Source: Cephalotus follicularis (lineage: Eukaryota > Streptophyta > Magnoliopsida > Oxalidales > Cephalotaceae). Taken from it: 64,000 nt of DNA. Numbering within the stretch: the stretch's first letter is position 1; each line of letters begins with the position of its first letter. This document shows positions 10,754 to 60,090 of the stretch, one piece after another. The stretch lies in the NCBI GenBank assembly GCA_001972305.1, contig BDDD01002234.1:239090-303089 (forward strand), written 5' to 3'. Position numbers and translations under genes: made by a program. The notes below the pieces were generated by a model. It made no database searches and was not told where the DNA came from. It saw only the letters and a program-made list of their open reading frames with translations.

Positions 10754-12105
10754 ATGCCTAGGACAAAAAGTGCTAGTAAAAAGAGGGTTGCTAGCTCTTC
10801 CCGACCAGAAAAACTAGGTTCTAAAAGGAAGCTTAACATTCAAGAACTTTCTCCCAATCCATCTCTTCAATCAGATTCCGAATTCGAAGAAGTCATTCCT
10901 ATTGGAAATGTTGTTTTGTTGATAAACTTGTCATGGGTGGTAGGAATATAGACTTAGCTTTTTGTTCCAACTAATTTGTATTCGTCTCTTGGATTGAAAA
11001 TCTGCATCTTCTTCCTCTAGTGCAAATTCAAGAGATGTTCTATATAAAACTTGTCAAAGAGTTTTACATGAACTTGAGAATTGTTTTTAGTCCTCACGAA
11101 GAATTTTCTTTGTCCTCTTCTTTTAAAGGTCAACGTATTTTTTCTTGATGCTAGGAATCTTGCTTCCATTCTTAGCATTCCTTAAACCGACTTGTATGCC
11201 TTTGAATACAAGAAGTGGCCGAAAGTTGAGGCTTTTTCATCCGAATGATATTTTATCAATTCTCTATCCAAATGACCCAAACATTAATCCAAATATGTCA
11301 CTTTGTACAAACAAACTTTCGGTAAATCACCGTCTTATACACCATCTCATAGTTCACCAATTGCTCCCTACCAGTGGTGGCTATGCCAAACTCACAAGGA
11401 TGCAAGCATTCCTTATTTGGTGCATCATTTCCAAGGTTGAATTTTGCTATCCCCTACTTATGCTTCACGCCATGGTGCGTGTCTTCACTCAAAAGAAATC
11501 TGTACTTCCTCTTGGTTGTATTTTAACCAGAATCTTTCATTTTTATGAAATTAATCTTGAGGGGGAGATTGGGACAAAGTTGAATAAAGAAGACACGTAT
11601 AGCTAAAGCACTCTTAACCACATGGGTTGGAAGAAGCAAGATGGGAGCTGGATATATTGTCCAAGGAGTGATCAAAGTCAGAGAATTAATAGAGAAGAAC
11701 ATTAAGAAATCCCTCCATGGGAAGGTCAAGAAGCTGCCCCTTCTCTCTCTCTCTTTCTTATAATCGTGGTTCCTCTTCCACATCCGAGTATGATCGTATT
11801 GTCATTTGATGAATGCTTATTTTGATGCTATGAACAGTAGATTCGATTCTATGGAAGCATCAATTGACGGAAAATTCCAGCAACTCAATTCTCGCCTTGA
11901 TTATTTGGAAATGGATCACAAGCTGATTCGAATAGATTTTGATACTATTGAAGATACGATATATTATGACTTAGAGGTCAATAAGAGATGTCTCAAACGT
12001 TTGGAACAAAAACTTCCTGAATCCAAGATGACTGACAATTGTGAAGAAACCCCCGACGATGAACCTGCTCCTAACTCTGATTCTGCTCACAATTCTGATT
12101 CTTAA
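10754..12105 (+). pseudogene. C1 env-like / putative plant transposon protein
   Basis: I chose the start at MPRTKSASKK because C3 starts alike (MVRTK, 20859, - strand). A basic, serine-rich N terminus is followed by blocks that align with C3: KGQRIFLDARNLASILSIP, then GGYAKLTRMQAF at about 11375 and GWKKQDGSWIY at about 11620. The final part (11806-12105) is acidic and predicted coiled: FDAMNSRFDSMEASIDGKFQ then a D/E/S-rich tail. These ORFs resemble the putative plant transposon protein family found as an extra ORF in Sireviruses, whose role is unknown. At least three frame changes and several stops (about 10949, 11190, 11606) break it. Confidence 0.7.
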
Positions 12106-12528
12106 ATGTTTTTTGTTAAACAGTTTGTGTGTGAGTTATCTAATTTGAACAAAGTGTTTTTGCTATGTTTTGTAAGTGTTTGTTTTCAGAATCCAAGATG
12201 ATTGACAATTTCATGTGTTATGTTGTTGATTTGATATTTTGGTGTTATGATGATTATATTGTTAAAATTATGCTTTTCTTTCTAATTTTTTTATTATTCT
12301 CCAAGATAGGGGGAGAAACATAGAATATGACGGTAAAAATGGTAAAGTGTTCTATCCCTCTCTTCGTAAGGGGGAACTTATTCTTATTCTACTTCTTCAT
12401 ATGTCTTTTTGATGCTATCCAAAAAATGGGGAGATAGCTCAAAATTGAAATTCTCTTAGTAAAGATGTATATTTAATTATGTTTCAATCTTATGCGCAAA
12501 TTTATGTCATCATCAAAAAGGGGGAGAT
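12106..12528 (+). other. C1 3' untranslated region with multiple purine tracts
   Basis: G-rich tracts TAGGGGGAGAAA (about 12307), AAGGGGGAACTT (about 12369), ATGGGGAGATAG (about 12427) and AAAAAGGGGGAGAT (12515-12528, abutting the LTR) occur in series. The last is the position expected for the polypurine tract that primes plus-strand DNA. Several such tracts in a row are typical of Sireviruses. Confidence 0.75.
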
Positions 12529-12644
12529 TGTTGACGTTTTTAGTCTCAATCCTAGTTTTGATGATAACATATTTGCATTTAACAAAGTTCATTTTATGTG
12601 CAAGATGTTAGAAATCTCACAAAGGCAAAAAGACAATTTTTTAC

Positions 12645-13225
12645 AAAGACATCGATGTAGTTGACAAGACATCAAGGCATTGACACAATAACATCGATGT
12701 GGTTAAAGAAAACATCGACGTCTTCAGCTCCAGAAGTTATAGGCAGTTTTTCCTCAAAGACATCGATCCTATTCTATAAAGACATCAACGTATTTGCCTC
12801 TAGAAGTTACATGAAGTTTTTCCTCAAAGACATCGATCCCACTTATGAAGACATCGAAGTTAAACTAAAAGACATCTATGTGTTTAGAAAAAACATCAAT
12901 GTGTTTAAGCTCAAACGTTAAGGTCGATTTTGAAGAAAGGCATGGATCCCATTCTATGAAGACATCGACGTCCAAGAAAAAGACGTCGATCCTTTTTCCA
13001 TGACATCGATGTGTTTGAAGACTCAGCTACAACTCCAGAAAAGACATCGATCCTTTACTATAACATAATATGTTGTTCATATCTTTAAAGCTTGGTTACA
13101 AGTCCAGAAAAGACATCAACGCCCATATTAGACATCGACGTCTTTTCACAAAATTATGCCCTGGATGCTCACAACGGCTAATTAACTTACAAAGACATCG
13201 ATGCTTATCAGAAGACATTGACGCT
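12645..13225. repeat. ACATCGATGT array, about 21-bp period (C1 LTR)
   Basis: ACATCG-type units start at 12649, 12669, 12691, 12712, 12760, 12782, 12830, 12851, 12872, 12893, about 12940, 12962, 12983, 13003, 13044, 13113, 13132, 13194 and 13214. Many steps are 19-22 bp and most of the larger gaps are close to two or three such steps. A larger repeat (ATCGATCC...AGAAGTTA..AGTTTTTCCTCAAAG) overlaps part of the array. Confidence 0.85.
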
Positions 13226-13322
13226 TCTCCTTCAACGGTTACATAACAAAGTTACAGCAAATCATGAGTTTTTCATATCTTAAACCTCCATGATTTATGT
13301 AACGGCTACAAGGAATTTTTGG

Positions 13323-13332
13323 CTATATAAAG
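13323..13332 (+). promoter_or_regulatory. Probable LTR TATA box (C1)
   Basis: CTATATAAAG lies about 100 bp after the last palindrome of the array and about 480 bp before the LTR end, as expected for a U3/R promoter. Confidence 0.6.
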
Positions 13333-13860
13333 GAAGATCCAAGCCTTCAGAAATAACCAAGAAACAAAGAATTCAAGCACTCAAGAAAATTACAAACTAC
13401 AAAGATCAAGTGCTCTTAGTGTCTTGAAAAGCTTCAAAGCATTACTTTTTGTGTTCTTGAGTTGTTCAATTGTTCTCAGCATTATAAGCTATATCAAACC
13501 TACTTAGAGGTTTTTTTGAAAACACAAAATCAAACACTTGTAATAGAGGAGAGTGAATCCTATAAGGTATTGTGGTCAAGGTCTTGTGATTGAGAGATCA
13601 ATCAAGAAAAAGTGTAAGGTGTAAGGAATTGCTACCTTAATCAATTCGGGCTATTGGAAATTCATGGAGCTACCTTGGGAAAAGTGGATGTAGGCAAGAG
13701 TTTGGCCGAACCACTCTAAAAATTCCCCTCTTGTATATTGCAAGAGCTGTTTTATTATTTCAGTTCACATAGGCTACATGGCCGTAGGCAGACTTCCTAC
13801 AAAACCATTTTAGGACAAAAGAGTTTGGGGTTGAAAACATTACATTTCGTATAAATATAG

Positions 13861-14491
13861 GGCACAAAGTGTTGACCCTTCCATAATAGCGTCGACGGTT
13901 TCGGGCAGCAAACCATCGTCGGTTAGGCAAAGCATTGCCGGTTTAGCGTTGCCTTATAAAGCGTCGATAGTTATCTCACTCCCAAAGTGTCGACGCTTTA
14001 AGCCAAGCATCGACGGTTTTGATAGTTGCAGCAACAACGCATTTGTTCATCTACAACACTAAAAATAAACTCCAATCCCAATTAAACCGTTGGAAACTCG
14101 ATCCAATGAAGGCCATAAGCCCCAATGGTCAGTTATAACTTGAAAACAACTTTAAACGATTAGATCCATACCGATAGATCCATAATCAAGAGAGAGAAGA
14201 GATTAGGCCAATAAACCTAAAACTCTCAAATCTCTCTCTGTTTTCCATTTTAATATGTTATTAAGCGTAACAACCACCTTAACTTATCCATCTAGCATAG
14301 ATCTATCAATCCATAACCCTATAATCCTTCCATTCCGTCAATATGCATGAATTCAAAGCATATGTGTAGAACCTACCTCAAAATTGTTGAGCTGAAGATA
14401 TGAAAGGATTTGCTACTGAATCATCATTTTGATCCTTCCATCAAGCTCTAAACTCTACCACGAATAGAAAGACTCCTTCCTTGGCTGAATC

Positions 14492-15518: not shown

Positions 15519-16559
15519 TGAAATACCAATATGGCAACTCTTAAGAAATAAAATAATTGTTTGCGGAATTAACAAATTAAGACTATGAAACTAAACAATC
15601 ATACAAGAACAAATAAAACAATTATAAGTAAAGAGAGCAGGGATAGAGAGTGTGCAAACGTATTTATAGTGGTTCGGAAAATCCGTGTCTGCGTCCACTT
15701 TCTCAAGACTCCCTTGAGTTTCCACTAGAATCCACTAGTAACCTTTGATTTCGGCTTGCAGGTGCAAATCAAAGAAAAACCACCTTACAAGTGATCGACC
15801 CCCTTTGATAATCCTCCTAAGGGTTCACTTCCCTTGATTATCTCACGAAGGAATCACTCTTCTCTTTTACAATGAAACACTTAAAGGATTGGTTTGTGTT
15901 TACAAATAACCTCTTAAAGGTTGGATATGAAAGTGATAGCTAGTTACAAGCTTTGGATGTAAAAACGTAAACTATAGCTTGATGTTCTTCTCCTTGTAGA
16001 TGTGCAAGTTGAGCTCTTGAGATTGGATGTTCAAAAACTATTTAATCTTGTTTCTTGGCCTCTATATATAGCTTTCTTCAGTTTATGGCCGCTGTAAAAG
16101 TAATATAGCCGTTGGAGAAGTCTTTCAAGTTGTTGCATAAAAGTCGGCTCTTTAAAACATGATCATTAACATTTATGCTGCGCAAAGCGTCAATGGTGTC
16201 TCTTAAAGCATCGGCGCTTATGTTACCGTTATGCGTTGAATTTGAATTTTCTCGCTCTGTCCGCCGACGCTTTGATCTTGGTGTCGACTCTTTGGTATAA
16301 AGCGCTGACGCTTTACCTTGAGCGTCGCCACTTTGAGTTCTTCAAATGATTTTGCAAGTCACTATTTTTAACCGCAGATACACGTTCTTTAGGCATTGAC
16401 GCCTTAGTCCAAACCGCTTACGCTTACTTTGAGACCGTCGGCGCTTTGCCCTGTTTCTTCACTTCCTTATTTTGTTTATTTTTTTCTTGCACAGAAAGTA
16501 ACAAAGTTAAATGCAAATTTGTAATCATTAAAACTTAGGATTGAGACTAAAGGTCAACA
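15519..16559 (-). mobile_element. Reversed copia solo LTR (1041 bp)
   Basis: It begins TGAAATACCAATATGG, ends AAAGGTCAACA, and is flanked by AGAGT at 15514-15518 and 16560-16564. Read on the - strand it starts TGTTGACCTTTAGTCTCAAT, a typical Sirevirus-like LTR start related to C1 and C3. TCGA-type motifs (AAAGCGTCAATG, AAAGCATCGGCGC, GTGTCGACTC and others) lie at about 16184-16450. A TATA-like CTATATATAG lies near 16062-16074 on the downstream side in the LTR's own direction. Confidence 0.9.
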
Positions 16560-16569
16560 AGAGTGATGA

Positions 16570-16984
16570 AAGGAAGTTTGGAATGAAATTTTTTAAGCTT
16601 AGGGTTCATGATCTTGAGTCCTTGAAAAAGGAGGCGATTATGAATTCCTTTGTGTTCCTTCAATCCCAATTCTTGCAGTGTAGAGAACTCCATGGCATGA
16701 TTGTGCCTTCTAGGCCCAGCAACAAGTGTGGCTATGAGGTGTATTCACCACAGTTTTATGCATGTCAATTCGGATTAACCCAAGCTATTCCTGCTCCAGC
16801 CTTCTTTTCCTCCAACCGGTACCTTTCTGACCGTACTAATTTTTAAGCTGATCACAACAAGATGGTGATCGTAGTTGTTGACTCATTTCGTGCACAATTT
16901 GTCAACGAATTTGTTGCCTTTGTTGAGCATTTAGGCACAACTCTGGAGTTTGAACAGTGATGGTCAACTTATGTTGAAAAAGAG
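16570..16984 (+). pseudogene. Antisense gene of the Tat-like element, upstream fragment
   Basis: An open stretch reads FFKLRVHDLESLKKEAIM.. then ..GYEVYSPQFYACQFGLTQAIP, followed by a stop at about 16844 and further coding (NKMVIVVVDSFRAQFVNEF). The YSP..ACQFG.TQ.IP pattern is reminiscent of plant mobile domain proteins carried by some Tat-lineage retroelements; this is from memory and not a firm match. The reading continues at 27329 (TTTGCTTTGAGTTCTGAAG) across C2, whose 5-bp TSD AAGAG marks the exact break. On the left it is joined to an unrelated gypsy RT piece, so its true start is missing. Confidence 0.45.
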
Positions 16985-17199
16985 TGTTGGCCTTTGCCAC
17001 CCCGATTAATTACGTTTACATATGTTATTTTGATGATTAACAAACATAGATTACTTGTATGCATAATTCCTTGAGTTATAACTTCACATACTCACTTGAT
17101 TTTATGTCCAAAGTTGTGCAAAGAACATTTCTGCAGATACAGGCAAATCCAGTCGACTGCCACAGGGCACCAGTCGACTGCCCAAGGTTGAGTAGTCGA
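16985..17199 (+). mobile_element. C2 5' LTR remnant
   Basis: It aligns with the first 215 bp of the 3' LTR (26052 on), with six substitutions that I counted. It stops inside a TCGA motif (GTAGTCGA) at the junction with C3. Confidence 0.92.
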
Positions 17200-18142: not shown

Positions 18143-18511
18143 ATCTCCCCCTTTTTGATGATGACAAAATTTGTTACCATTAAAGCATAAAAATTGTTAA
18201 GTTTATAAACATTAACAAAGGAAGAGCATGTGAAGTAGGAATTGAAACTTTAAACCAATTGAGTTGAGACTTTTAAACCAATTTAGTTCAAACATAATAG
18301 CTCCCCCTGAGTTTAATGTCTCCCCCTTAGTCATAGAAGGGTTAAATTTCCTCTTTGATTCTATGTCTTAAGAACTTCTTTCAAAAATGTCATTTCTCCC
18401 CCAAAGTTTTAATCTTTAAAACATTGAACAAATGCATTAAGTGCTTGTATTCTCCCCCTTTTTGTTATCATCTTAAAAGGGATTTGGGGAACTCATCCAA
18501 CTTTAAGAAAG
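18143..18511 (-). other. C3 3' untranslated region with five purine tracts
   Basis: On the - strand AAAAAGGGGGAGAT abuts the LTR (18143-18156). Further AGGGGGAG-like tracts lie at about 18301, 18320, 18396 and 18451. This is the Sirevirus multiple-PPT arrangement. Confidence 0.8.
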
Positions 18512-20109
18512 CATTTGGCATATGAGAATGTTGCAAAGGATATAGTAAGAATGAGTATGAAAGAGATGGTAAAGGTATGCATTAATATTTAAGCCTGTGC
18601 ATACTAAAACGATTGAACAATATACCAAATCATTTCAAACTACAAGCATTAAAGCCATAGTCAGTACATGAAGCTGTAATTTAGTACACCAAAGCATTAA
18701 AAACATGAACTTCATTTCATTAATGCCATAACATAGTCATTTACATAAAAAGATTGAACTTTCAATCTTCAAACATTAAAACCAGAAAATGCAGAAATGC
18801 AAAAGAACAGAAAATGCAGAACACAAAAGACATGATGCACATGCTCAATCCTCCATAGCATCCGTGGCTGCATCGTCCGGTGGATTATCGTCGTGGCTGG
18901 ATGATGAGGATATGAGGCCATCATACACAACAAGGCCTGCGTCAGCAGTTCTCTTGAAAAATCTCTTTTGACGCCTCCTCATGCTCTCAATGTTCTTCTG
19001 CATGCTCTTGATAACATCGAACATCGAACATCTCATCCATCCCATGTCTTGGAGGATGTTCATCTGGAATCTGTTGAGGTGGTGGTTCGATCTGTAAAGG
19101 TGCATTCTCCGCTTCCTCACCAGCCTCGGCTTCTCCCTCTTCTTGCTCTATTCTGTTTGAATCCTCATCCCTTGTTATCCAAGCACCTGTCCTCTTGTGC
19201 TTTTTGAACCCCATTCTAGCGAGGGTTCCTTTTCCCAGCTTATCTGAACTTTGGAGGTCATTGTGCACCTCTCCAGTGAAGTCCACACCAAAACACTCTA
19301 AGATCCTAAGCATTTGGCATATGAGAATGTTGCAAAGGATATAGTAAGAATGAGTATGAAAGAGATGGTAAAGGTATGCATTAATATTTAAGCCTGTGCA
19401 TACTAAAACGATTGAACAATATACCAAATCATTTCAAACTACAAGCATTAAAGCCATAGTCAGTACATGAAGCTGTAATTTAGTACACCAAAGCATTAAA
19501 AACATGAACTTCATTTCATTAATGCCATAACATAGTCATTTACATAAAAAGATTGAACTTTCAATCTTCAAACATTAAAACCAGAAAATGCAGAAATGCA
19601 AAAGAACAGAAAATGCAGAACACAAAAGACATGATGCACATGCTCAATCCTCCATAGCATCCGTGGCTGCATCGTCCGGTGGATTATCGTCGTGGCTGGA
19701 TGATGAGGATATGAGGCCATCATACACAACAAGGCCTGCGTCAGCAGTTCTCTTGAAAAATCTCTTTTGACGCCTCCTCATGCTCTCAATGTTCTTCTGC
19801 ATGCTCTTGATAACATCGAACATCGAACATCTCATCCATCCCATGTCTTGGAGGATGTTCATCTGGAATCTGTTGAGGTGGTGGTTCGATCTGTAAAGGT
19901 GCATTCTCCGCTTCCTCACCAGCCTCGGCTTCTCCCTCTTCTTGCTCTATTCTGTTTGAATCCTCATCCCTTGTTATCCAAGCACCTGTCCTCTTGTGCT
20001 TTTTGAACCCCATTCTAGCGAGGGTTCCTTTTCCCAGCTTATCTGAACTTTGGAGGTCATTGTGCACCTCTCCAGTGAAGTCCACACCAAAACACTCTAA
20101 GATCCTGGT
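18512..20109. repeat. 799-bp perfect tandem duplication inside C3
   Basis: Copies 18512-19310 and 19311-20109 are offset by exactly 799 bp and I found no difference in the parts compared. They start at AGCATTTGGCATATGAG and end at CTAAGATCCT. The unit covers part of the 3' untranslated region and the C-terminal third of the env-like ORF. Confidence 0.93.
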
Positions 20110-20859
20110 TATGATATTGCTATAACCTAGCCTTGCATTCTCCCGGTCGTGTATCGAATGCATATACATCACAATGAGAAAGAGAACATTTATGGGTCGG
20201 CTAGTGACAAAGTGGTACAAAGTGAAGGCTTCCATGTGGGTTACCTCATCGAACCCACCGGCCTTAGGAAGAATGTGCGTGCAGATCGCACGGTGCAAAA
20301 ACCTATAGTGCAAAGGTAAATTCCTAGTGTACATACGCTGAAGTGGTTCAGCGTGTTCACCGAACAAGGTTCGAACACAGTCAAGTCTGTCAAAACCATC
20401 ACCAGAAACCCAAGTTCGTTGATTCCAGCCTTTAACACCTAGGTTTGGAATATTCAGTATGGAATGCAGCTTGTCTAAATCAAACTTAATGCACTTTCCT
20501 TTAACAGTGGTGCTAATGCCAGGCGTAGTGTATGAAGAGCTAGAAATAATTTTAGCATAAAACTCCTTCATAAGGTCTGGAAAACTAGGTTTGTTAAAAG
20601 AAAACAAAGGTTCTAACCCCTGAAATCTAAGCCACTCCACTATAGGGAATCCTTCCCTAGAACAAAAAGCAAAGTAAAGGACTTTACCTACTAAGATTTT
20701 TCGGTTAAAATAAGCTTCAGGGTACCTAAGCTTCGGAGCAGATACCTCAGGGACGGTGGAGGAGGTGGTGGCAGCAGCCTTCTCCTTCCCCTTCTTGCCA
20801 ACCGATTTCTTCTTGCTTTTGGACCCTTCCCCTTGCTCAAGACCCTTCGTTCTCACCAT
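19644..20859 (-). pseudogene. C3 env-like / putative plant transposon protein
   Basis: I start at MVRTKGLEQGEG (20859), since the C1 counterpart begins the same way; 17 more codons are open upstream. A lysine-rich N terminus is followed by KLRYPEAYFNRKILVGKV, KGKCIKFDLDKLHSILNIP, PKAGGFDEVTHMEAF and ARMGFKKHKRTGAWI, then an acidic E/A/P-rich stretch. The frame breaks at about 19825-19840, where GATGTTC is present twice in tandem on the coding strand. The C terminus then continues in another frame (SMQKNIESMRRRQKRFFKR, about 19795) to a stop at 19644. No signal peptide or clear membrane segment is evident, so 'env-like' refers to position only. Confidence 0.75.
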
Positions 20860-21236
20860 GATTGAAGTAGAAATGATGTTAATTTTTGATCTCCGACACG
20901 GATTCGTCAAGAAATCGCCAGAAAAATCGCCAGACAGTTGAATTTTTGAGTTAGGGTTCGTTGTACAGTGAGGCAGACGGCGCTTAGAAGTTTAAAGCCC
21001 GACTAAAGCGTCGACCGAGTGGGTAACAGCATCGGCGCTTAGACCAATTTCCCCAAATTCGAACCCTAATTTTTCTTTAAAGCGCAGACGCTTAAAATAC
21101 GACCGTCGGCGCTTAGATCTGTTTTTCTTCAAACTTGCCGCAAACGCGCGAGAATGTATGCAAATGATGCAATCATGTATAAACAAGCAATTTTAACAAA
21201 CATGCATATACATACAAATCATACAAACATGTTAAA
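20860..21236 (-). other. C3 pol-env spacer with TCGA-type array
   Basis: No conserved ORF is seen. Motifs AAAGCGTCGACC (21005), AGCATCGGCGCTT (about 21028), AAAGCGCAGACGCTT (21079) and GACCGTCGGCGCTT (21101) repeat the dialect of the C3 LTR, in steps of about 22 bp within each pair. Confidence 0.7.
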
Positions 21237-22736: not shown

Positions 22737-23046
22737 GTACCAGACAGCAGACGCTTTGCACTAAGCGTATGCGTTTTGCGCCTCAAAGCGCAGACGCTTG
22801 ATTTTGAGAGTCGACGTTTTGAGCTTTATTCCCAATTCTCCAAGTGCTTCACAGGTAGGCGCTTTGTTCTTGTCTCGACCGTCAGCTAAAGCGCAGACGC
22901 TTTAATTTCAAGCGTCGGCGGTCTGGGCGGTTTCTGCATAATTTCTGCTGATATGTTTATCTTTTATCTTTCTTGCACAAAAAGAAACTTTGTCAAATAC
23001 AAATATGTTATCATCAAAACATAGGATTGAGACATAAATGTCAACA
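22737..23046 (-). mobile_element. C3 5' LTR remnant (310 bp)
   Basis: It is identical to 17833-18142 at every base I compared. It ends TGTCAACA at 23046, next to the C2 integrase sequence. On the left it is fused to gag at GTACC, a short sequence shared by both sides of the deletion. Confidence 0.92.
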
Positions 23047-24780
23047 AAAACAATTTGCCAAAATATCTTTGGGCGGAAGCCGTGAACACCGCATGCTATA
23101 TAATAAATAGATTCATGATTAGATCAATTTTAAAGAAAACCCCTTATGAGCTTTTCAATGAAATAAAACCAAGTGTTAGTCACTTGAGACCTTTTGGATG
23201 CAAAGTTTTCGTTTTAAATAATGGGAAAGATAATCTTGGAAAATTTGATGCCAAGAGTGATGAAGGAATCTTTCTAGGCTATTCTTTAAATTCTAAGGCA
23301 TATAGGGTGTTTAATAAAAGAACTTTAATTATTGAAGAGTCAATTCATGTCTTATTTGAAGAGTCTAATAGTGCTCTGAGAAAGGGAGATGTTGTTGATG
23401 ATGTAGGTATATTGGAACAAATGGAAAGCTTGGACATCAACAATGAAGATGGTGAAGTTGACAAAGTTGAAGAAGAAGGAGGACATGAAGAAGAATTTCA
23501 ACAAGTTCAAGTCACCAAGGAGCCAATTGCTAGAAGAGAAAGAGAGTACGTGAAGGACAACGAGGTAATCGGTAATCCTACCGAGGGGGTAAGAACTCAT
23601 TCCGCTCTTAGGGAGTATTGCGATAATGTAGTTTTCATTTCAAATATCGAACCCAAAAATATTTTAGATGCTTTAAATGATGATTGTTGGATTCTGGCTA
23701 TGCAAGAGGAACTAAACCAATTTGACAAAAGCAATGTTTGGTCATTAGTTCCTAGGCCTAAAAATCAATCCATCATTGGCACCAAATGGATTTTTAGAAA
23801 CAAAATGAATGAAAATGGGTTAGTTATTCGGAATAAAGCTAGATTAGTTGCACAAGGTTATAGTCAAGAGGAAGGCATTGACTATGATGAAACCTTTGCT
23901 CCGGTAGCTAGATTAGAAGCTATTAGATTATTAATGGCCTTTGATTGTTTTAAAGGTTTTAAATTGAATCAAATGGATGTTAAAAGTGCATTTTTAAATG
24001 GCATAATAAATGAGGAAGTTTATGTTAACCAACCTCCGGGTTTTGAAAATGTGCATTTTCCCGATCATGTTTTTAAGCTTTCTAAAGTACTTTATGGTTT
24101 AAAGCAAGCACCAAGAGCTTGGTATGAAAGACTTTCAAAATTTCTCTTGGAAAATGATTTCAAAAGAGGTTTAGTGGATAAAACTCTTTTTGTTAGAACT
24201 AAACTTAATGATATTCTCATTGTTCAAATTTATGTAGATGACATTATATTTGGTTCTACTAACCATTCTCTTTGTGTCGAGTTTGCTAAAACTATGCAAG
24301 GTGAATTCGAGATGAGTATGATGGGAGAACTCAAGTATTTCCTTGGATTTCAAATCCAACAAGGAAATGAAGGGACTTTCATCAACCAATCCAAATACAC
24401 CAAAGATCTACTCAAAAGATTTGGAATGGAGCACTCAAAGCCTTGCAAGACACCTATGAGCATTGCAACAAAACTTGACAAGGATGAGGATGGTAAAGAG
24501 GTAGATCAAAAATTATATAGAAGCATGATAGGATCTCTACTTTACCTAACCGCTAGTAGACCGGATATAATGTTTAGTGTATGTCTTTGTGCTAGATATC
24601 AATCATCACCTAGAGAATCTCACTTAACTGCGGTTAAGCGAATTTTTAGATATCTTGCATACACACCATTATTAGGATTGTTTTATTCACATGATTCATT
24701 GTTTAACTTGCATGCTTATTCCGATGCCGACTATGGTGGTTGCAAATTAGATAGAAAGAGCACTAGTGGCACTTGCATTC
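23047..24780 (+). pseudogene. C2 copia pol: integrase end, RT, RNase H (truncated)
   Basis: The reading starts at NNLPKYLWAEAVNTACYI (integrase) and runs open for over 570 codons. It covers SHLRPFGCKVF, an acidic linker, RT (IGTKWIFRNK at about 23776; RLVAQGYSQEEGIDYDE; catalytic YVDDIIFGSTN at about 24232) and early RNase H (YSDADYGGCKLDRKSTSGTC at about 24717-24776). After Cys at 24776 the copia sequence stops abruptly and is joined to part of the env-like region; the frame runs on through foreign codons to a stop at 24992. RT itself looks intact. N-terminal domains were lost at the C3 junction. Confidence 0.9.
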
Positions 24781-24943
24781 TCCTTCTTGTAACAAACACA
24801 TTCCTCCCAAAAGAAGGCTCGCACACTCTTCCTTCCGAGCGAGACCTTAAATTTGTTGCTTGTGTTAAGAATGGAACCCCAATTAACTTCCTTACCTCAT
24901 TGTCAACCACTTTCTATCTCGACCAAATCACACACCTTATCCT

Positions 24944-25417
24944 ATGCTTCTCAGTAGGATCATTGAGGCTGTCCTTGCATCACTTAACATAGATATTCCT
25001 GATGATGAGCAAAGTGTTAAACCTTCCCATAAGCAATTGGTGAATAAGGCAGTACTTAGACTATGTAACCTTGTTTTTGAGGATAGTGAGTGGGTCAAGA
25101 TACAAGGCAGAGGTAGAGAGCAAGTAAGAGAGAAAGCAAATGTAGGAGGAGGAGATGATGAGGATGATCCACAGCAGTTTGAGATGCGTCCGAGTGTTGG
25201 CCCGAGTAGCAGCAGCAGCAGCAGGCCTACCATGGAGTCTCTTCAGGCAAGGATGGATCGTGCCCAAGCCGACATCGAGTTTCTCAAAGGGGAAATGCAT
25301 CACTTTCATGAGGGACAAGCAAACATCATTCAAACTCAAGCCGATCTCCTTCAGGGACAAGCAAACATCATTCAGATGTTTCAAAATGCTTTCCCTCAGC
25401 ATCCTCCTCCCTCTTGA
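24944..25417 (+). pseudogene. C2 env-like C-terminal fragment
   Basis: The segment MLLSRIIEAVLASLNIDIP aligns with the C3 env-like SNIITRILECFGVDFTG. After it come an acidic patch (GGGDDEDDPQQFEM), a serine run and a heptad-like coiled C terminus with the repeated phrase LLQGQANIIQ. Coding remnants in other frames extend back to about 24780, where they meet truncated RNase H, so a deletion removed the region between. Confidence 0.65.
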
Positions 25418-26051
25418 GCTTACATCTGCATTATCATGTTTTTATTGTATTTTAAAACTTTGCTTGTGTAATTGTCTCTATTTAAATTTCCCTGGTTATG
25501 TATAAGACAATGTAGATTATGTACTTCAAGCTTTAAGTATTTAATGTTAAAATGCTTTGATCTTTAATGTTTTGGGTTACATGAATGTGGTTTATGCTTG
25601 AGGATTTATGTGTTCAATGCCAAAGTGTTTTAATGTTTATTGCTTTGTGTTGGATGAATGTCATTTATATAGATGTGTATCTCATTGCATTGACCTTATT
25701 GATGAATATGTAAATGAATGCATAGGTTGAGGGGGAGCTCTTCAATTCATGCTATGATTGAGGGGGAGCTTCCATGTCTCTTTTTGTAGTTTGACAAAAA
25801 GGGGGAGAGATTTATATTTTGCATGTTGCATTGAGGTTGAAATGAAGTTGCATGCATTTGGGGAATATATTGCAAGTATTGCATATTGATGAGATGGGTT
25901 GTAATATTGCATTGAGCAAGTGTATTTTGTTATGACAAATGCATCGGATATGCCTATATTGGTAAACTTGGACTTTGGAACTAAATTGGTAAAATTTGTC
26001 AAGATTTATGCAAAATATGCATGTTTTGTCAATCATCAAAAAGGGGGAGAT
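25418..26051 (+). other. C2 3' untranslated region with four purine tracts
   Basis: There is no gene here. GAGGGGGAGCT tracts lie at about 25729 and 25760, AAAAAGGGGGAGAG at 25796-25808, and AAAAAGGGGGAGAT abuts the LTR (26037-26051). This is the Sirevirus-type multiple-PPT region. Confidence 0.8.
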
Positions 26052-26216
26052 TGTTGGCCTTTGCCACCCTGATTAATTACGCTTACATATGTTATTTTGA
26101 TGATTAACAAACATAGATTACTAGTATGCATAATTCCTTGAGTTATAACTTCACATACTCACTTGATTTTATGTCCAAAGTTTTGCAAAGAACATTTCTG
26201 CAGATACAGGCAAATC

Positions 26217-26727
26217 CAGTCGACTACCATAGGGCACCAGTCGACTGCCCAAGGTTGAGTAGTCGACTGCCAAAGGTTGTGTAGCCAACTGGACCTTCAA
26301 CCAAACTCAGCATCTACAGGAACACCAATCCAGTCGACTGCCACAGGGGTCCAGTCGACTGCAAGGCAAATCCAGTCGACTGTCACAGGACACCAGTCGA
26401 CTGCCATGAGGTACAAATTCAGGTAGTGGCTTCTGTAACATTTTAACACCCAATCCAGCCGACTGAAGCAGGGCACCAGTCGACTGCCAGGGTATCCAGT
26501 CGACTGTCAAGGAATCCAGCCGACTGTTTTCAATTGTGCAATTTCAGGCAGTAGCATTTGTAATCTTCAATTTCAGCTCAACAGCCGACTGGAACAGAGC
26601 ATCCAGTCGACTGCCAGCGCCACCAGTCGACTGCCTAGAGGAGACAGCCGACTGCCCAACACCAACGGCTATATTCAAATGTACGCGCCATCAAACCATC
26701 CGGTTGCCGTACAAATCCAGCCGACTG
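26217..26727. repeat. CAGTCGACTG palindrome array, 21-bp phased (C2 LTR)
   Basis: Motif copies (CAGTCGACTG, CAGCCGACTG and close variants) start at 26217, 26238, 26260, 26282, 26331, 26352, 26373, 26394, 26456, 26477, 26497, 26517, 26582, 26604, 26624, 26645 and 26718. Twelve of the sixteen steps are 20-22 bp; two of the rest are about three such steps (62, 65). Confidence 0.93.
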
Positions 26728-26769
26728 GATTCATATCAGACCTTTAAAAATAGATCCGTTGGAGGCACA

Positions 26770-26779
26770 CCTATAAAAG
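26770..26779 (+). promoter_or_regulatory. Probable LTR TATA box (C2)
   Basis: CTATAAAAGG lies about 45 bp after the last palindrome, consistent with a U3 promoter fed by the array. Confidence 0.65.
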
Positions 26780-27328
26780 GAAATTTGGAGCTCTTGCACA
26801 AGTGATCAAGCATTCAAGTTGCATATTCTCTCAAGCTATCTCAAGTACAATACCAAGCTCTCACACAATCAAAAGAGATCAAATTCAAAGCAATCCTACA
26901 CATTACAAAGCTTTATTTTTACATTACATACATACTCGTAGTTTGTTTAAAGTGAGCCAAATTGTAAAACAAATTCCTACAAATTTGTAACTTTCAAACA
27001 CTTATTTCACACATACAAGAGAGGTTGTCTCTTGTATTGCTCGATTGGAGCAAAGTTGTAATTCGCTTGGTTGGAGCGAAAGTTGTTGGAGCTCGGTTGG
27101 AGTTTCAAGCCCGGATTGGGGCATACCTAGTGAAATACTCAAGGGGAGACCTTGGGGAGTGGACGTAGGCGGTTTGCCGAACCACTATACATCCGTTTGC
27201 AATTCTCTAACCCTACACTCTTTATATTTCTGCAATTGTGTGTTTGTGTTAATTGAATTATTTTGTGGTATATTTGCTAGTAATTTTTATAAGTCTATTC
27301 ACCCCCCCTCTAAACTTCCTACAAAGAG

Positions 27329-36866: not shown

Positions 36867-36913
36867 GCCCTAAAGTTGATTTTGCTGAGGGTGAAAAATC
36901 AAGGGAAGAAGAT

Positions 36914-39903
36914 TGTCACACCCCGTTATTTCGGTTCCATATTATTTAGACCAGCATATATGGTGATATTAGTATTAACATACATTCCAGCATTTCATTT
37001 AACAGTATAAAACAGTATGCGGAAAATAGTCAAGAAGCCAGAATGTATAAAGATTACAAGTCTTCGCACGTATCCCATACTACGTGCGGATACAGTCAGA
37101 ATTATCCTTATCATAAGGAAACATCATAAAACGAAGCATGATTCGTTCGTTCATTACATAACAACAGTAAAATAACAACCTTAAACGATAAACAGAAGCT
37201 TTCAGAAGCTTCGGCAGCAAGCTCCAAACATCCTCGCTCAATCTGTAATGGTAGGGGTTAGCCGTTGTCCTCACTTGGCTAAGCAGGAAGATAGTGTATG
37301 CAGAAGAATATATGAATGCAATTATGTATGACAGTTTATATAAAATAACATTTCAGTGGGCCAATATGTACGCAAACATGCCAAGTGGCCATGAACAGTA
37401 CAAATGCAAAGATACCGCACAAGGGTACAATCAATTCATTCAGTCGTTTGGGTGTCGCATATCGCTAACTCCTAGCACCAATCGCGCACCACCTATCCAT
37501 CACCCTATGCACCGAGGATGAAAAATCAGGTAAGTTACTACAAGCGTTGGAGGGTAGTTTAACAGTAATTCCGTAATTGCAGACAGTGGGGTGATACTCT
37601 GGCCAACTCCTGGCACCCAGGATCACATCCATAATCAGTGATATCCTCCATCACTAACTATGGCAGTAGCATAGACAATTAAAACAATAAGTACAATCAG
37701 TAATAATATTACATATATCATTAATATGCAATATCAAGATGGTTTCTTTTAGAACATATAACAGTACAGTAATCGTGCATCTCAAATGAGGAAACGATAT
37801 CAGTAACAGTAGGGTTTCCGGTGAGGAAACAAATCAGTCGGTACCTCTCATATGGAGGAAAACAGTAGTTCATTTAACAATAAACACTCTTTTGAAAATG
37901 ATAGTAGATATCATAAATCATGCATGTAACACTCAGTTGATTCAATAATTAGAATCTAAAACAGTAGGTGAAAATAGTATTTCACAATCAATAATTGATA
38001 AATCAGTGGTTTATCTCAACAATAAACTAATTTTGAAAATGATAGTGAACTATCATGATTTTTGGTTCAAGTTCCATAAATGGTTTTGATCTTGAAATTA
38101 TCAGTAGAAGTGGTGTTCATATCACCAAACAGTAGATATATACTAATATAAATAGCATATATTAAAACAGTAACTTTGGTAAATAATAACTTTCATTGAA
38201 AGTAATGTTTAAAACCATCATTTGTGCATATAGCACATATCTTGCTCGATTATAGAAATATCAGTAACAATGGTGTTAAATAGCACCATACAGTAAGTAT
38301 ATACTAACATAGGTAGTATATACAGTAGCTTTAATCAAATCAGTAGTTCTTGCAAATAGTAGTTTGCATTTGAACGGAGGTTTAAAACCATCATTGTGCA
38401 TGTAGCACATAATTCGTTCAATCAGTGAATATCAGTAGTGATGATGTTAAATAACATCAAACAGTATGTGCATTATGTTGGTAACATGTACAATTCATCA
38501 ACAATGCAAAACAGTAACAATTCAGTGATTATTATGCAGTTCCAGCCCAGAACAGTCGGCTGCCCTCAAGAACCAGCCGGCTGTTGGGTATAGCAGTCGA
38601 CTGCAATACATGACAGTCGACTGTTTTTGCCCAGAAATGTGGCAGATCAGTTTTGTGTAATGCAATTTCAGTGTCAATCATTCCAATGCAAGGAGAAAAT
38701 TAATATACACATATGCATGATCAAATCTTCCAATTCATATCACCACCCCTACCTCAAAATGCTATCCCAAGATCAATTGCAATGATCTTTCTCGTTAAAG
38801 CTCTCCAAGTCACTTTCCAAGCTTTCACCAAATCAATTCCTTTAATATCAGGGGGTTCAATCTATGCATGCATGTTATAAACATGTGCATCAGTTCAGTA
38901 GTTCAGTAACATTTATAATCAATCCAAACAGTAGCTTAAGTCATCATTTCATTAAGCTTTATATCTCCCATTTTACCACTTCTTATGCATGTTCAACTAT
39001 TTTAATTCCTAATCTGTTAGGGAACAGCAGGTGTACATGCATATTATGAAGGAAAACAGTGGTTAATGATGGAACTATCCACAACCTCCTAATCCATTTA
39101 GAGATTAACATCCATCTACTTGAATCAAAAGTCACATTCCATCTCGTTCCTTTAACTCCTTGGAATTGTTAATCAATCATGTTATCAAGAGATTAAACAT
39201 TCACCTATCCTTACTGTCATATTACAACAACATAGGGAATTCGAATTGAACTTACCAGGAATGTTCAAGATCCCAAGTTCCCACTTTGAGCTTCAAGCTC
39301 CAACTCTCCAATGCAAGATTTCAATCAATCCAGCAACAATCCCTTCTTCTTTTAGTGTTTAACAACACTCACAAGCAGTACATTCACAGATGATATAGCC
39401 ACAAAATTGCTAGAGTCCATTTACTCAGCAATCTCTCATTCTCTCACTCACATGCATTTGTCTCATATTTCTTATCACTTCTTAAATTTCTCTTCTCAAT
39501 GTTGTAGGTTGCAGGTTTGGAATCTGCAGAGCACATGCTAGGGCTCTCCTTGCATGTAATGGTCGGTTGTGTATCTCCACGACACCTGTCCCATTAATTG
39601 CCACGCCTAAACTCAGCTTGACACCTGCACAGACCCATGTTCTGTCGAAATTGCCGTCGACTGGATTCATCAGGCAGTCGACTGGACATTACACGAGTCA
39701 GGCAGTCGACTGTTCCCTTGTGGCAGTCGACTGTCAAGAGTGAAATTAGGGTTTCTTAGGTTCGGTTTTCACCAACCGAACCGCCATTTATTTCAAGTAA
39801 AATTACCAATCACAATTTACAATAATTGGACATTAAATTCAAATAAGTGCACATTTTATTAATCATTATTACAATGTACACGAATTGAATTTGCGGTTCT
39901 TAC
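36914..39903 (-). mobile_element. G1 element 3' LTR
   Basis: About 2990 bp. CAGTCGGCTG/CAGTCGACTG motifs lie at 38553, 38574, 38594 and 38614 (21, 20, 20 bp), with another group near 39654, 39675, 39703 and 39724. The terminal base next to the polypurine tract differs from the other LTR. Confidence 0.95.
38553..38623. repeat. CAGTCGACTG array in the G1 LTR
   Basis: Four copies occur with steps of 21, 20 and 20 bp. An equivalent array lies at about 44247-44320 in the partner LTR. Confidence 0.88.
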
Positions 39904-40420
39904 GTTCCTCCCTCCTTAAAGAAAATTCGTCCTCGAATTTAGTTCTTACATCACATTTCAAAAGGTGGGGAAATGTCTCTCTCATCTCTTCCTCACGTTC
40001 CCACGTAGCCTCCTCCGCTCCCTGAAAACGCCATAACACCTTGACCATAGGAATGGTCTTGTTCCTCAGAACCTTTTCTATGCGATCTACTATCCTCGTT
40101 GGCCTTTCTTCATATGTCAACCTCGGACTGATGAATCCATGGTCGTAGCTCAGAATATGAGATGGGTCGGGTATGTATTTCCGTAACATGGAAACATGAA
40201 ATACGTTATGCACATCCGACAAGCTAGGCGGTAGTGCAATCTGGTATGCTACCTCCCCCACTCTATCCAGTATCTCGTAAGGCCCAATGTACCTCGGAGC
40301 TAACTTCCCTTTGAGGCCAAAATGGTAGATCCCCTTTGAAGGCGAGATCTTCAGGAAAACATGATCTCCCTTCTCAAACTCTAGCTTTCTTCTCTTGCTG
40401 TCAACCGGATCCTCAGTTGA
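39869..40420 (-). pseudogene. G1 integrase C terminus with chromodomain-like tail
   Basis: The reading passes through FEKGDHVFLKISPSKG and YIGPYEILDRVGEVAYQIAL. It continues with DVHNVFHVSMLRKYIPDP and an end of the type VLWRFQGAEEATWEREEEM, which resembles the region where chromoviruses carry a targeting chromodomain. One stop or frame change lies near 40265. Its upstream end is fused to RT at about 40400-40420. The nominal ORF runs a few codons into the LTR. Confidence 0.8.
39904..39917 (-). other. Polypurine tract of the G1 element
   Basis: On the - strand AAGGAGGGAGGAAC abuts the 3' LTR start, the expected plus-strand primer site. Confidence 0.75.
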
Positions 40421-41358
40421 TGATAGCCTGTTCTTAAGTCAAGCTTGGAGAATACGGTTGAACCTTGCAACTGGTCGAACAATTCCTCGATATGTGGCAG
40501 AGGATATTTGTTCTTCACTGTCACTTGATTCAGCAATCTGTAATCAATGCACAGACGCATTGATCCATCCATTTTCTTTACAAACAGAACCGGTGCTCCC
40601 CATGGTGACACACTCGGTCTGATGAAGCCCTTGTCAAGATAGTCCTGTAGTTGAACTTTCAACTCCTTAAGTTCAGCAGGGGCCATTCGGTAAGGTGCTT
40701 TCGATATAGGAGCAGTCCCAGGCTGTAGTTCAATACTGAACTCAATATCCCTCTCCGGTGGCAGTGAAGTGAGATCATCTGGAAATACATCAGGAAAATC
40801 ACATACAACTGGAACTTGCTCTATACTAGGCGTACCTTTCGTATGGTCAATCACATGCGCCAAATAGCCTTCACACCCTTGCTTGAGATACTTCTGTGTT
40901 CGGGTGTATGAAATGATCGGAGCTGTAACATTCTTCTCTCTGATAAACTTGCATTCAGTCCCATCTTGCAGGTAGAAGGTCATCATCTTGTTGTAGCAGT
41001 CAACACAAGCATGATGAGCATATAACCAGTCCATCCCCAAGATTACGTCAAACTCCCGGATGGATAACACAATCAAGTCAGCAGTCAATTCAATTCCAGC
41101 TATCACGATTTCACAATCATTCATAACAGTGTCAGATAAAAAACAAGTACCCGCAGGAGTACTCACCTCCAGAACATAAGAAAGTTTAGAAGTAACACCA
41201 TGCAACTTGCGAGCAAAACTAGATGCAATAAAAGAATGCGTCACACCAGGAACAATTAACACATGTGCTAGAATGCCAGATATATAAATGGTACCTCCCA
41301 CAACAGTAGTGGATTCTGGCACATCATCTTTAGATAAGGTGTAGACCCTACCTTTCAT
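40381..41358 (-). pseudogene. G1 protease and front of reverse transcriptase
   Basis: This 325-codon ORF contains a protease domain and RT. In the protease the active-site segment reads [13 protein letters not shown]; the usual Asp-(T/S)-Gly is replaced, so the catalytic Asp is absent. DVILGMDWL follows. RT has [28 protein letters not shown]-type residues ([12 protein letters not shown]) and [14 protein letters not shown], where it ends: the catalytic DD motif is missing, removed by the deletion that joins RT to integrase. Confidence 0.88.
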
Positions 41359-41379
41359 GATCCCCTTTCCAGTGTCCTT

Positions 41380-42504
41380 TCACGGTTGAGCCGCTGAAGC
41401 ACTACCACTCGCACCAGCACTCCCCTGTTGGCTGCGTGCATGATCTCTCATCATCGGACATTTACTCAGCATGTGATCTTGCGATCCACATCGCAAACAC
41501 TTCCCCATTCTCTTCCAGCATTCGGCCTCATCGTGATTCTGACGGCCGCAAAAAGTACATCCGCTTGCATTCTGCTGGTTGTTACGGCCAGGTGTCCTTG
41601 ATCGGTTGCGTCGAGACCCACCTTGCCCTCTGTTATCAGACTTGTTTGATCTAGCAGGATTATTACTTCCCTGCCCTTGCGACTGTATGGCCCTCGACTG
41701 AGTAGCTCGAGACCGTTCTGTCCTCCTCTTATTAGCATCTTCCTCAAGAATCATCGCCCTTTCTGCAACTTCAACAAAAGATTTAAGCTGCAGTGCCAAC
41801 AGTTTGGATCTGATATCAGGTCGAAGGCCTTTTAGGAACCTCCGGATCATCCGTGACTCTCCCTCGACTATATAAGGCGTGTGTCTGGCCAGCTCTGTGA
41901 ATCTGGTCTGGTACTGGGCTACCGCCATGTCTCCTTGACGTAGCTCCATCAGATCTATCTCCTATCTGTCACGCTCTATCTACGGTACATAAGCATCCAG
42001 AAACTCGGACTGGAATCTGTCCCAAGTTCTGTTGAGTCCACGGGATTCCCATTTCGCTTATGTTCTCTCCCACCAGTACGTCGCTTCGCCCCAAAGGCGG
42101 TACACAGCAAAACTGAGCTTCTACTCATCAGTACAGTCTAGAGCAGTAAAGATCTTCTCCAGATCTCTAATCCATCGTTCAGCAGCAGTGGCATTCAGCT
42201 CTCCATTAAAGGTCGGAGGATTCTGTCGCATGAACCTCTCCAAATCTCGGCCAAATCCACCTGCATGACAAGCATCCGGTGCTGGTTGATATGCCCGGTT
42301 AGCCTCATACATCTGCCGGATCTGCTCCATATTTGCTGTATTAGCTTGCATCTGCTGTCGGAAGAGATCAGCCAGGTTATCAAAATTACTTTTGTCATCA
42401 TGGACTGGGGGAATGTTCATTTGCGGAATATTTTCGGGCACTGGTGGAGCATTGAATTCTTCGTTGGCTCGACGCCTTCCCCTTCGTCCTCTTCTTGGAT
42501 CCAT
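41380..42504 (-). pseudogene. G1 gag
   Basis: Gag starts at MDPRRGRRGRRRANEEF (42504), 89 bp from the primer site, and reads FMRQNPPTFNGELNATAAER to a stop at about 42121. It resumes, after two more stops, as MELRQGDMAVAQYQTRFTEL (41949). The C terminus has knuckle residues CTFCGRQNHDEAEC and CLRCGSQDHMLSKC, then a G/S/A tail ending at 41380. It would form the capsid and bind RNA; three stops break it. Confidence 0.88.
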
Positions 42505-42592
42505 TTAATTCCCTATATGTAATGACAAAAATCATTAGGAAACATTTTATTAATTTTCGAGAAACTTATCCCAGCTAGCATATATGGAATAT

Positions 42593-42604
42593 GCTCTGAT
42601 ACCA
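42593..42604 (-). other. Primer-binding site of the G1 element
   Basis: On the - strand TGGTATCAGAGC follows the 5' LTR end by three bases and is complementary to the 3' end of plant initiator Met-tRNA. Confidence 0.9.
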
Positions 42605-42607
42605 TGC

Positions 42608-45598: not shown

Positions 45599-45603
45599 AA
45601 GAT

Positions 45604-48139: not shown

Positions 48140-49419
48140 TGTAGCGCCCCCGACCCGAGTTCACCTTACGCACAAAGCGAGCTCCGAAGATCGGTGCGCT
48201 ACGTGTGGGTGTGAAACGTTACATTCTTTCGTACTATTTTCTAAAAGTACTCAACATCATAAATTTTATGTCTGTAAATTCGTACATAACCTTAAATTTC
48301 AAACTTTATACATAATCATTCTGCATGAAGGTGTCTTAACCATATCGTTGGTTACATTACACAGGATCACTTGAGAATTGAATCCTCTACGAATTTTTGA
48401 AAGTGGCTGATTTCTTAAGGAAACAGGGCCTGACCAGTAAAATGTATCCTTGATTTTCATCAAGAATTAGACATAATTTCGAGATGAATAAAACATGAAA
48501 GTTAAATATCACATCTTAAAGTTTTCAAAACATCCAGCCATTTAATTTTTCATCAAGAAACGAGTGAGATATGATTTAAACAAGCTACTGCAGACAGTGC
48601 CTGAACAGAAATTTTAAACTTGGAATTGCATCAAGAAAACGATATAATCTTGAAACACTCAAAGAATAACAGTTAAAGAGGACATTCTAAAGTTTCCAAA
48701 ACATCCAACTATTCGAAATCCATGAAGAATTGAAGAAGTTATCAATAAAAGAAGCTGCTGTCAAAACAGGGGATGTTTGTAAACAATGGGTAGAAAATTT
48801 CCTTACTTTAGCTTTTGAATTCCTTTCTCTATTGCTTACTATGAATTCTCCACTTCTTTATCTGCAGAAATACTTCCTTCCTTAGCTCAAAATGACTGAC
48901 TTCATGCATTGTTTGTCATTAAATAGGGAGATGGCTTCTTGGGTAAGTTTCTTCACACTTAATTACCTTATCTTGGCAACCCATGTGATTAATTTTCAAC
49001 CAATCCAAGTGTTGCACTTGTTAGATCCCCAGATAAAACCTTGTAACACCTTCCCCTAGCCTGCCACGTGTCCCTAATTAAAGAATTTTACTCACAAAAT
49101 GCCAAAAAGTCAGATTTTATCTCTTGTCTGTAGTGAAGACGTCGACTCTTCCTCAAAGACGTCGACTTCTTTGAGTCTTCGCTCAGGTCAATTGAGCAAA
49201 GACGTCGACCTCTTCCTTAAAGACGTCGACTCCTTTGAGTCTTCGCTCAGGTCAACTTAGAAAAAGACGTCGACCTCTTCCTTAAAGACGTCGACTCCTT
49301 TGAGTCTTCGCTCAGGTCAACTTAGAAAAAGACGTCGTACTACGGGTCCCTTGAAATATCTACCAATTACACAATAGCAAACATAAATAATATCTTAATT
49401 GGAAATTTGGGTTCTTACA
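48140..49419 (-). mobile_element. Solo LTR (G5, 1280 bp) nested in a solo LTR, TSD CTGAT
   Basis: It starts TGTAGCGCCCCCGACC and ends GGGTTCTTACA, flanked by CTGAT at 48135-48139 and 49420-49424. Read on the - strand it starts TGTAAGAACCC like the G1 LTR but is otherwise different. It carries GACGTCGAC repeats at 49138-49340. Confidence 0.88.
49138..49340. repeat. GACGTCGAC pairs in a roughly 64-bp tandem unit
   Basis: Motif starts are 49138, 49158, 49201, 49222, 49266, 49287 and 49331: 20-21 bp within a pair, 43-44 bp between pairs. The intervening text (CCTTTGAGTCTTCGCTCAGG) is itself repeated. Confidence 0.9.
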
Positions 49420-56248: not shown

Positions 56249-56573
56249 ATGTCTTAGCCTCTTAAGCTTTCTATAAGATCCATGTAGCGAGCTTTCGATC
56301 AGTTACTCTCAAACCAGTTGGCTTTAAGGAACTAGGTGTAGAACACCCCTAAGGTTTAATTACTCGAATCAAATAGGCTACAGACTAAGACTGAATTCAA
56401 AGAGGTAAATTTATTTATATATTTGTATATATGTCTTAGCCTCTTAAGCATTCTATAAGATTCATGTAGCGAGCTTTCGACTAGTTACTCTCAAACCGGT
56501 TGGCTTTAAGGAACTAGGTGTAGAACACCCCTAAGGTTTAATTACTCGAATCAAATAGGCTATAGATTAAGAC
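56249..56573. repeat. Direct duplication of about 145 bp, 182-bp offset
   Basis: ATGTCTTAGCCTCTTAAG starts at 56249 and again at 56431. Both copies contain GTAGCGAGCTTTCGA and GGAACTAGGTGTAGAACACCC, with a handful of differences. Confidence 0.9.
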
Positions 56574-60079: not shown

Positions 60080-60090
60080 TGGTATCAGAG
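60080..60090 (+). other. Primer-binding site of the G2 element
   Basis: TGGTATCAGAG lies six bases after the LTR end, complementary to initiator Met-tRNA. Confidence 0.9.

Follow-up and report, generated by a model that had tools for sequence, protein, structure and literature searches.

Palindrome arrays comparable to those described here are known from the RM motifs of Sireviruses (Bousios et al., 2010; PMC2829016). As far as that paper was covered here, each element carries at least eight palindromic RM, most of which occupy the first LTR half, upstream of the TATA box, and further copies lie upstream of the ENV gene where ENV is present. The motifs start 200-400 bp into the LTR in most copies, which is not a rule, and the RM table has a CGG-CCG core, to which Tnd-1 is also an exception. 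The same part of the paper calls the RM Sirevirus-specific and absent from classic retrotransposons and gives the palindromic motifs a regulatory reading, without being able to name a shared binding factor. In maize, according to the portions of two further papers that were covered, Sirevirus palindromes are small-RNA hotspots (PMC5311732, PMC10760457), and the maize motif occurs in 10.7% of Helitron structured regions (PMC10760457). LTR elements are described in another partly covered source as having only a slight preference for palindromic targets (PMC6911290).

The window analysed here is the whole stretch of 64,000 nucleotides from Cephalotus follicularis, in which the element C2 is bounded by the unstranded target site duplication AAGAG at 16980-16984, matching that at 27324-27328. 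A forward-strand fragment of the C2 5′ LTR (16985-17197), interrupted by the nested element C3, is 97% identical over 219 bp to 26048-26266 and holds the first two palindromes of the array (17150-17180, forward strand). Also on the forward strand lie a pol remnant (23031-24992, its first bases inside the LTR of C3), four polypurine tracts, which are a Sirevirus hallmark (25730, 25761, 25800 and 26042; span 25730-26050), and the 3′ LTR of 1272 bp (26052-27323), followed by the right duplication; gag has been lost from this copy. The sequence-only reading had placed C2 in Ty1/copia, and the RVT_2 match of the remnant (E=3.4e-75) showed that a Ty1/copia reverse transcriptase is indeed present. 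It had also reported 17 palindrome copies, most of them 20-22 bp apart (12 of 16 steps), and two gaps near three steps, and our recount of the array (26217-26727, forward strand) returned the same figures: CAGTCGACTG recurs 16 times with at most one mismatch and once in degenerate form (26282, three mismatches), at steps of 21, 22, 22, 49, 21, 21, 21, 62, 21, 20, 20, 65, 22, 20, 21 and 73 bp, where 12/16 are 20-22 bp and those of 62 and 65 bp are near three steps. Over the whole window, CAGTCGACTG was matched 52 times at one mismatch or less, whereas 100 dinucleotide shuffles averaged 0.91 matches and never exceeded 4. The spacers of the C2 array were alike among themselves in a shuffle test that does not keep redundancy, and the array contains a duplicated block of some 125 bp, or about 6 × 21 (26321-26526 against 26445-26654, 75%).

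C2 was filed as a Sirevirus because a copia reverse transcriptase is combined with four polypurine tracts before the 3′ LTR, and it largely fits the published Sirevirus pattern. The last of its several tracts (four, 25730-26049) adjoins the LTR, and many palindromes occupy the first LTR half (LTR positions 166-676 of 1272) before the promoter, a TATA-box-like TATAAAA lying 44 bp downstream of the last palindrome (26772-26778, forward strand). The array starts 165 bp into the LTR, slightly earlier than the usual 200-400 bp, and its core is YCGA instead of CGG-CCG. The earlier remark that palindrome arrays were already known in Sirevirus LTRs agrees with PMC2829016 as far as it was covered; the RM table there is without CAGTCGACTG, the nearest entries by eye being Vitis CGGTCGACCG and Tnd-1 ACAATCGATTGT, and the covered account mentions no 21-bp step or shared spacer. 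The maize palindromes are similar in clustering in the regulatory part of the LTR, and the Helitrons give a precedent outside copia (PMC10760457); the maize palindrome is however a different one, Helitrons are not gypsy LTRs, and shared spacers are not mentioned in the parts of the two papers that were covered (PMC5311732, PMC10760457).

C3 (17198-23046, reverse strand) is a nested Sirevirus-like element that breaks the C2 5′ LTR at 17197. Its LTR contains four palindrome pairs of the GCGTCGACGC type at 21, 20, 20 and 21 bp, and two further pairs at 21 bp (21008-21112, reverse strand) lie directly upstream of its PF20167 ORF, an extra ORF (19786-20991, reverse strand); all are matches within two mismatches, one of them exact, and the pairs were chosen after the list had been inspected. 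At two mismatches the C3-type arms were matched 32 times after thinning, and 17-21 times in each of five shuffles, so that single matches of this type mean little. With the same plan on another palindrome, C3 suggests that the 21-bp step may be more general than the CAGTCGACTG motif. No target duplications matching the ends of C3 (17198, 23046) were seen in C2, and the region therefore looks rearranged. The start of C3 falls within one palindrome of the C2 array, its 5′ LTR is reduced to about 310 bp (22737-23046) and then breaks into internal sequence, and its interior contains a perfect tandem duplication of 799 bp (18509-19307 and 19308-20106), either a recent event or an assembly fault. 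A further Sirevirus-type PPT/LTR junction (12520) was found in the neighbouring DNA (11127-14020 and 16206-16446), with a PF20167 match below cut-off beside it (11127-11603) and more C3-type palindromes, several with 20-21 bp steps.

Here the motif is also present in Ty3/gypsy LTRs, which differs from the RM as far as PMC2829016 was covered. G1 (36914-45598, reverse strand; AAGAT duplications at 36909-36913 and 45599-45603) is an internally deleted Ty3/gypsy element with LTRs of about 2991 bp, and carries array b at 38553-38623 and array a at 39654-39733 in the 3′ LTR and the corresponding arrays at 44247-44317 and 45348-45427 in the 5′ LTR, all on the reverse strand. Its domains are RVP_2, RVT_1 and SH3_Tf2-1, with a chromodomain match just under the cut-off; between 39904 and 42607 the middle of pol is apparently lost, and the protease and start of the reverse transcriptase adjoin the C-terminal part of the integrase. 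G2 (7763-10606, forward strand) belongs to the G family as a solo LTR, flanked on either side by CTAAA, with arrays at 7937-8016 and 9054-9124, and A (614-2330, forward strand) is a partial LTR of that family with an array at 888-1000; the names G1 and G2 were assigned to these elements in this analysis. The best blocks among G1, G2 and A are 83-87% identical and others fall to 76%, which makes them one LTR family, so the window has three separate array contexts (C2, G and X). From the length and ends of its LTR, G is presumably Tekay-like.

The X array (58508-58671, forward strand) lies in the LTR of a second gypsy family, for which motifs suggest that the LTR ends at 60073 and that the primer site is at 60080, and its spacers are oriented opposite to those of C2 and G. 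Its domains are RVP_2, RNase H and an integrase zinc-binding domain; the proteases of X and G1 share 33% identity, and the top match of the X protein, among the best 120 of 8000 matches, is named Ty3-gypsy. In two protein searches the relatives were plant copia and Ty3-gypsy elements (best 120 of 8000 matches each). Thus the domains of the elements that host the G and X arrays are those of gypsy and not of Sireviruses. The spacers of X in the window are unlike each other by the shuffle test, with palindromes and step still present. Local direct repeats of about 140 bp and 95% identity were seen at 49136-49337 and 56249-56573.

When the array spans were masked, the C2 LTR gave 0 HSPs at E<=1e-3 against both G1 copies, G2, A and X, as was expected from the sequence-only reading, which had found it unlike the gypsy LTRs outside the array. 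The X LTR with arrays masked likewise gave no BLAST alignment to the G LTRs, and no common array flank was seen between the masked LTRs (BLAST, E<=1e-3). Masking of the palindromes alone left no BLAST match between the C2 and gypsy LTRs, so the likeness of spacers described below is visible only unit by unit. Both G1 LTRs have arrays at identical LTR positions, which places the arrays in the LTR before G1 inserted. The claim that copia and gypsy LTRs have the same palindrome and 20-22 bp step in common was supported.

In the 1.577-Gb assembly we counted 38,217 forward perfect pairs of palindromes at a distance of 18-23 bp, while the reversed pattern gave 136; viral contigs contained 0 perfect pairs, and 13 bacterial contig stretches had one. 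The array sample consisted of 20 ten-kb stretches of contig C1, a biased set chosen around perfect pairs, and the window. It comprised 51 arrays, namely 30 of G, six of C2-like LTRs, two of related Sirevirus LTRs, four of X, four related to X, four internal to Sireviruses and one not in any family, with L029:2958 excluded from the family counts and the single copy L036:701 not counted as an array. The first single-linkage clustering merged C2-like and X-like arrays via a nested copy, and these were split by hand from flank matches. The X-related arrays were oriented by their resemblance to X and not by their own genes, and some rows are non-independent (L021:7005 and L022:3739 have identical spacers). 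Among the G arrays, those with a 27-28 bp step were classed as Ga (array a) and the others as Gb (array b), so that all Ga have this step by definition.

Among 196 steps in the C1 stretches, 134 were of 19-22 bp, 16 of 27-28 bp and 22 of 40-43 bp, and none was below 19, at 23-26 or at 29-39 bp. With two mismatches allowed and the window added, 220 of 275 steps fell at 19-22 bp, 22 at 27-28 bp and one at 33 bp; the 27-28 bp class recurs in G and X arrays. Hence 21 bp dominates, and the class of 27-28 bp is not explained by a 10.5-bp helix. The "fixed helical phase" proposed earlier thus holds only in part, and a strict single phase is ruled out by the separate class. Of five stretches that were not chosen by motif, two had copies (one mismatch or less) and one was mostly N; in L042, one of the two with copies, the steps of 25 and 54 bp lie outside the step rule.

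The four internal arrays of the sample (L018:7490, L023:4989, L027:8574 and L031:6512) were all found at or directly before an open frame matching PF20167, 23-25 bp upstream of it in three cases (L018, L023 and L031); the L027 array overlaps the start of the frame. The two PF20167-matching pieces of L018 are both under the curated cut-off. L018:7490 and L023:4989 each sit between two LTR arrays of one element, and a copia reverse transcriptase lies on the other side of the array in L031. The C2 LTR array together with these four related stretches resembles the Sirevirus RM as far as PMC2829016 was covered, and by analogy the PF20167 frame was taken for the ENV position of Sireviruses; an extra ORF with partial likeness to PF20167 is also described for a sunflower Athila element in the covered part of PMC11728184. 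The same plan at two places of transcription is as would be expected of an enhancer.

In all six aligned groups the palindromes were more uniform than the spacers and flanks. The mean pairwise differences of palindrome/spacer/flank were.045/.423/.340 in Ga (15 rows),.125/.398/.360 in Gb (15 rows),.065/.184/.134 in C2-like (5 rows),.090/.164/.150 in X (4 rows),.083/.278/.308 in X-related (3 rows) and.033/.183/.272 in internal arrays (3 rows), with palindrome columns defined on the same rows and stretches selected for a perfect pair. The comparison was repeated on the seven of 14 Gb arrays (14 after dropping one G1 LTR) that lie on C1 and have no perfect pair, with columns taken from the other seven, and gave.158/.422/.401 (0/5000 permutations); adding the two window arrays (9/14) gave.139 for the palindrome against.400 for the spacer and.363 for the flank. 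All 14 of 14 Ga arrays contain a perfect pair, and this form of the comparison is therefore limited to Gb. Over 323 units, with X turned, positions 2, 3, 8 and 9 were unchanged in 318-321, and position 4 was T in 218 and C in 104, against 7/323 with the mirror change at position 7. As C4 is common and the mirror G7 is rare, the site seems to be read, or inherited, directionally. The C4:G7 counts were 86:0 in copia and G and 0:11 in X and X-related arrays, and both changes occurred together in 7 further copies.

Direction was also evident in the spacers. Unique spacers of 10-12 bp were scored for each pair of families, and as a control positions were permuted in a way that preserves how redundant the permuted family is. 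C2-like spacers resembled those of Ga on the same strand (forward 4.70, reached in 0/100 permutations, largest null 3.54; reverse -0.22, 99/100) and those of X-related and X arrays on the opposite strand (X-related, reverse 3.19, 0/100, forward -0.20, 86/100; X, reverse 2.42, 0/100, forward 3/100). The likeness to Gb was weaker (forward 1/100, reverse 67/100), the internal arrays, at 0/100 in both orientations, fit neither clearly, and Ga resembled X-related arrays in reverse (0/100; forward 47/100). With transition weighting, the C2-like values were 0/100 for Ga forward, 0/100 for X-related reverse, 1/100 for X reverse, 10/100 for Gb forward and 2/100 in each orientation for internal arrays; Ga against X and against X-related gave 0/100 each in reverse, Gb against X 0/100 in both orientations, and Gb against X-related 1/100 in reverse. 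The heptamer CACAGGG (one mismatch or less) occurred forward:reverse 13:0 in 53 unique spacers of copia LTRs, 11:0 in 19 of Ga and 2:0 in 41 of Gb, and 0:2 in 17 of X, 0:6 in 13 of X-related and 0:0 in 9 of internal arrays. One 11-base spacer, CCAAGGCAAAG, is identical in the C2-like L027 and in G array b of L034, and a best score of 11 was reached in 0/200 shuffles, which again do not keep redundancy; by eye, no two or more consecutive spacers matched across the superfamilies. Spacer 1 of Ga is conserved (.205, against.498 for spacer 3), with 5/11 columns invariant over 14 rows. The signs from spacers, variant base and CACAGGG are mutually non-independent if the units share descent.

A bare palindrome carries neither spacer likeness nor direction, and these point either to an exchanged unit that was later multiplied or to a composite site selected independently. 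We tentatively prefer, at a little under an even chance, the first of these, in which the 21-bp directional unit (CAGYCGACTG and spacer) would be a mobile module passed between copia and gypsy in either orientation within one genome; exchange is favoured by the 11-mer shared by L027 and L034 and by the matches of Gb to X and X-related arrays despite the rarity of CACAGGG. Independent gain of arrays by copia and gypsy LTRs for one host factor reading the palindrome with CACAGGG appears rather unlikely, although the absence of alignment between the LTRs outside the arrays is in line with it, and the pairs of C3 indicate that a 20-21 bp step can arise with another palindrome. It is also supported by Ga, where fixed positions are conserved in spacer 1 and not in spacer 3, which leaves room for selection, since arrays of separate origin could come to resemble each other, with no exchange, if a composite site were selected. 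The likeness nevertheless extends beyond CACAGGG to an 11-mer identical in copia and gypsy, Gb, with CACAGGG in 2/41, matches X and X-related arrays in reverse (0 and 1/100) and X also forward, and the polarity of the variant base flips along with the spacers. The sequence-only reading had left convergence and transfer open; spacers common to copia and gypsy, consistently oriented and coupled in polarity, now weigh against simple convergence on the palindrome.

The palindromes could instead act as transcript hairpins or as cruciforms, with a role in silencing or in making small RNAs, as has been suggested for maize Sireviruses, where the covered parts of PMC5311732 and PMC10760457 place small-RNA hotspots on the palindromes, and the arrays were more stable than 60 dinucleotide shuffles each (z -5.0/-7.3 for the two strands of C2, -7.5/-6.8 for X and -4.1 to -5.4 for G1), the LTR stretches after the C2 and X arrays reaching only -1.1 to -2.5. 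We consider this improbable, because self-complementary 10-mers stabilise folding whatever their function, the C2 array precedes the TATA-like box, and the common variant CAGCCGACTG breaks pairing both with itself and with the perfect copy (C4 104/323, G7 7/323). Slippage or unequal exchange that multiplied functionless units of 21 bp would account for the mutually alike spacers and the duplicated block of about 125 bp in C2; such a neutral minisatellite is still less probable, as in the six groups variation is 1.8 to 9.4 times lower in the palindromes than in the spacers beside them, and in the X array of the window the palindromes persist with their step between mutually unlike spacers. Common LTR descent was ruled out by the lack of alignment of the masked C2 LTR to G or X (BLAST, E<=1e-3), and nesting of Sirevirus pieces in gypsy LTRs was ruled out for G by the matching array positions in its two G1 LTRs; nesting as such does occur, the C2-like L027 having X-like sequence adjoining its LTR, but this pair of explanations is hardly credible here.

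Taken jointly, the best explanation, to which we give an even chance, is that the units are read by a host factor, drive transcription and have spread between elements by exchange. A host DNA-binding factor would read each unit, a distance of about two helix turns between units would suit cooperative binding, and such binding would drive transcription of the element. Exchange between elements, by recombination or template switching, would have carried the units beyond Sireviruses into at least two families of Ty3/gypsy LTRs, in one case inverting them. Cis-regulation by a host factor is probable on the sequence evidence; that the units are bound, that this activates the element, which factor does so and that exchange was the way they spread are what we infer from it. 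The low-temperature site of CBF/DREB factors is RYCGAC (CBFHV in PLACE), and barley CBF binds it. CAGTCGACTG contains GTCGAC whichever strand is read, and GCCGAC is present in the common variant, so copies with an intact centre contain one or the other form of this core and are candidate sites; the array palindrome differs in being conserved beyond the core (positions 2, 3, 8 and 9).

In the titles and abstract openings that made up our partial literature survey, we found no report of CAGTCGACTG LTR arrays or of a palindrome shared by copia and gypsy. As far as that survey goes, the motif and step in two Ty3/gypsy LTR families, with spacers common to copia, are new. If the unit is a mobile module lying in the LTRs of several families, many elements would answer to one host factor. 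If the same array and spacers serve two gypsy families, control sequences pass from one retrotransposon superfamily to another, and many elements could be switched together by a single host factor. The tens of thousands of pairs in one genome should ease the finding of that factor.
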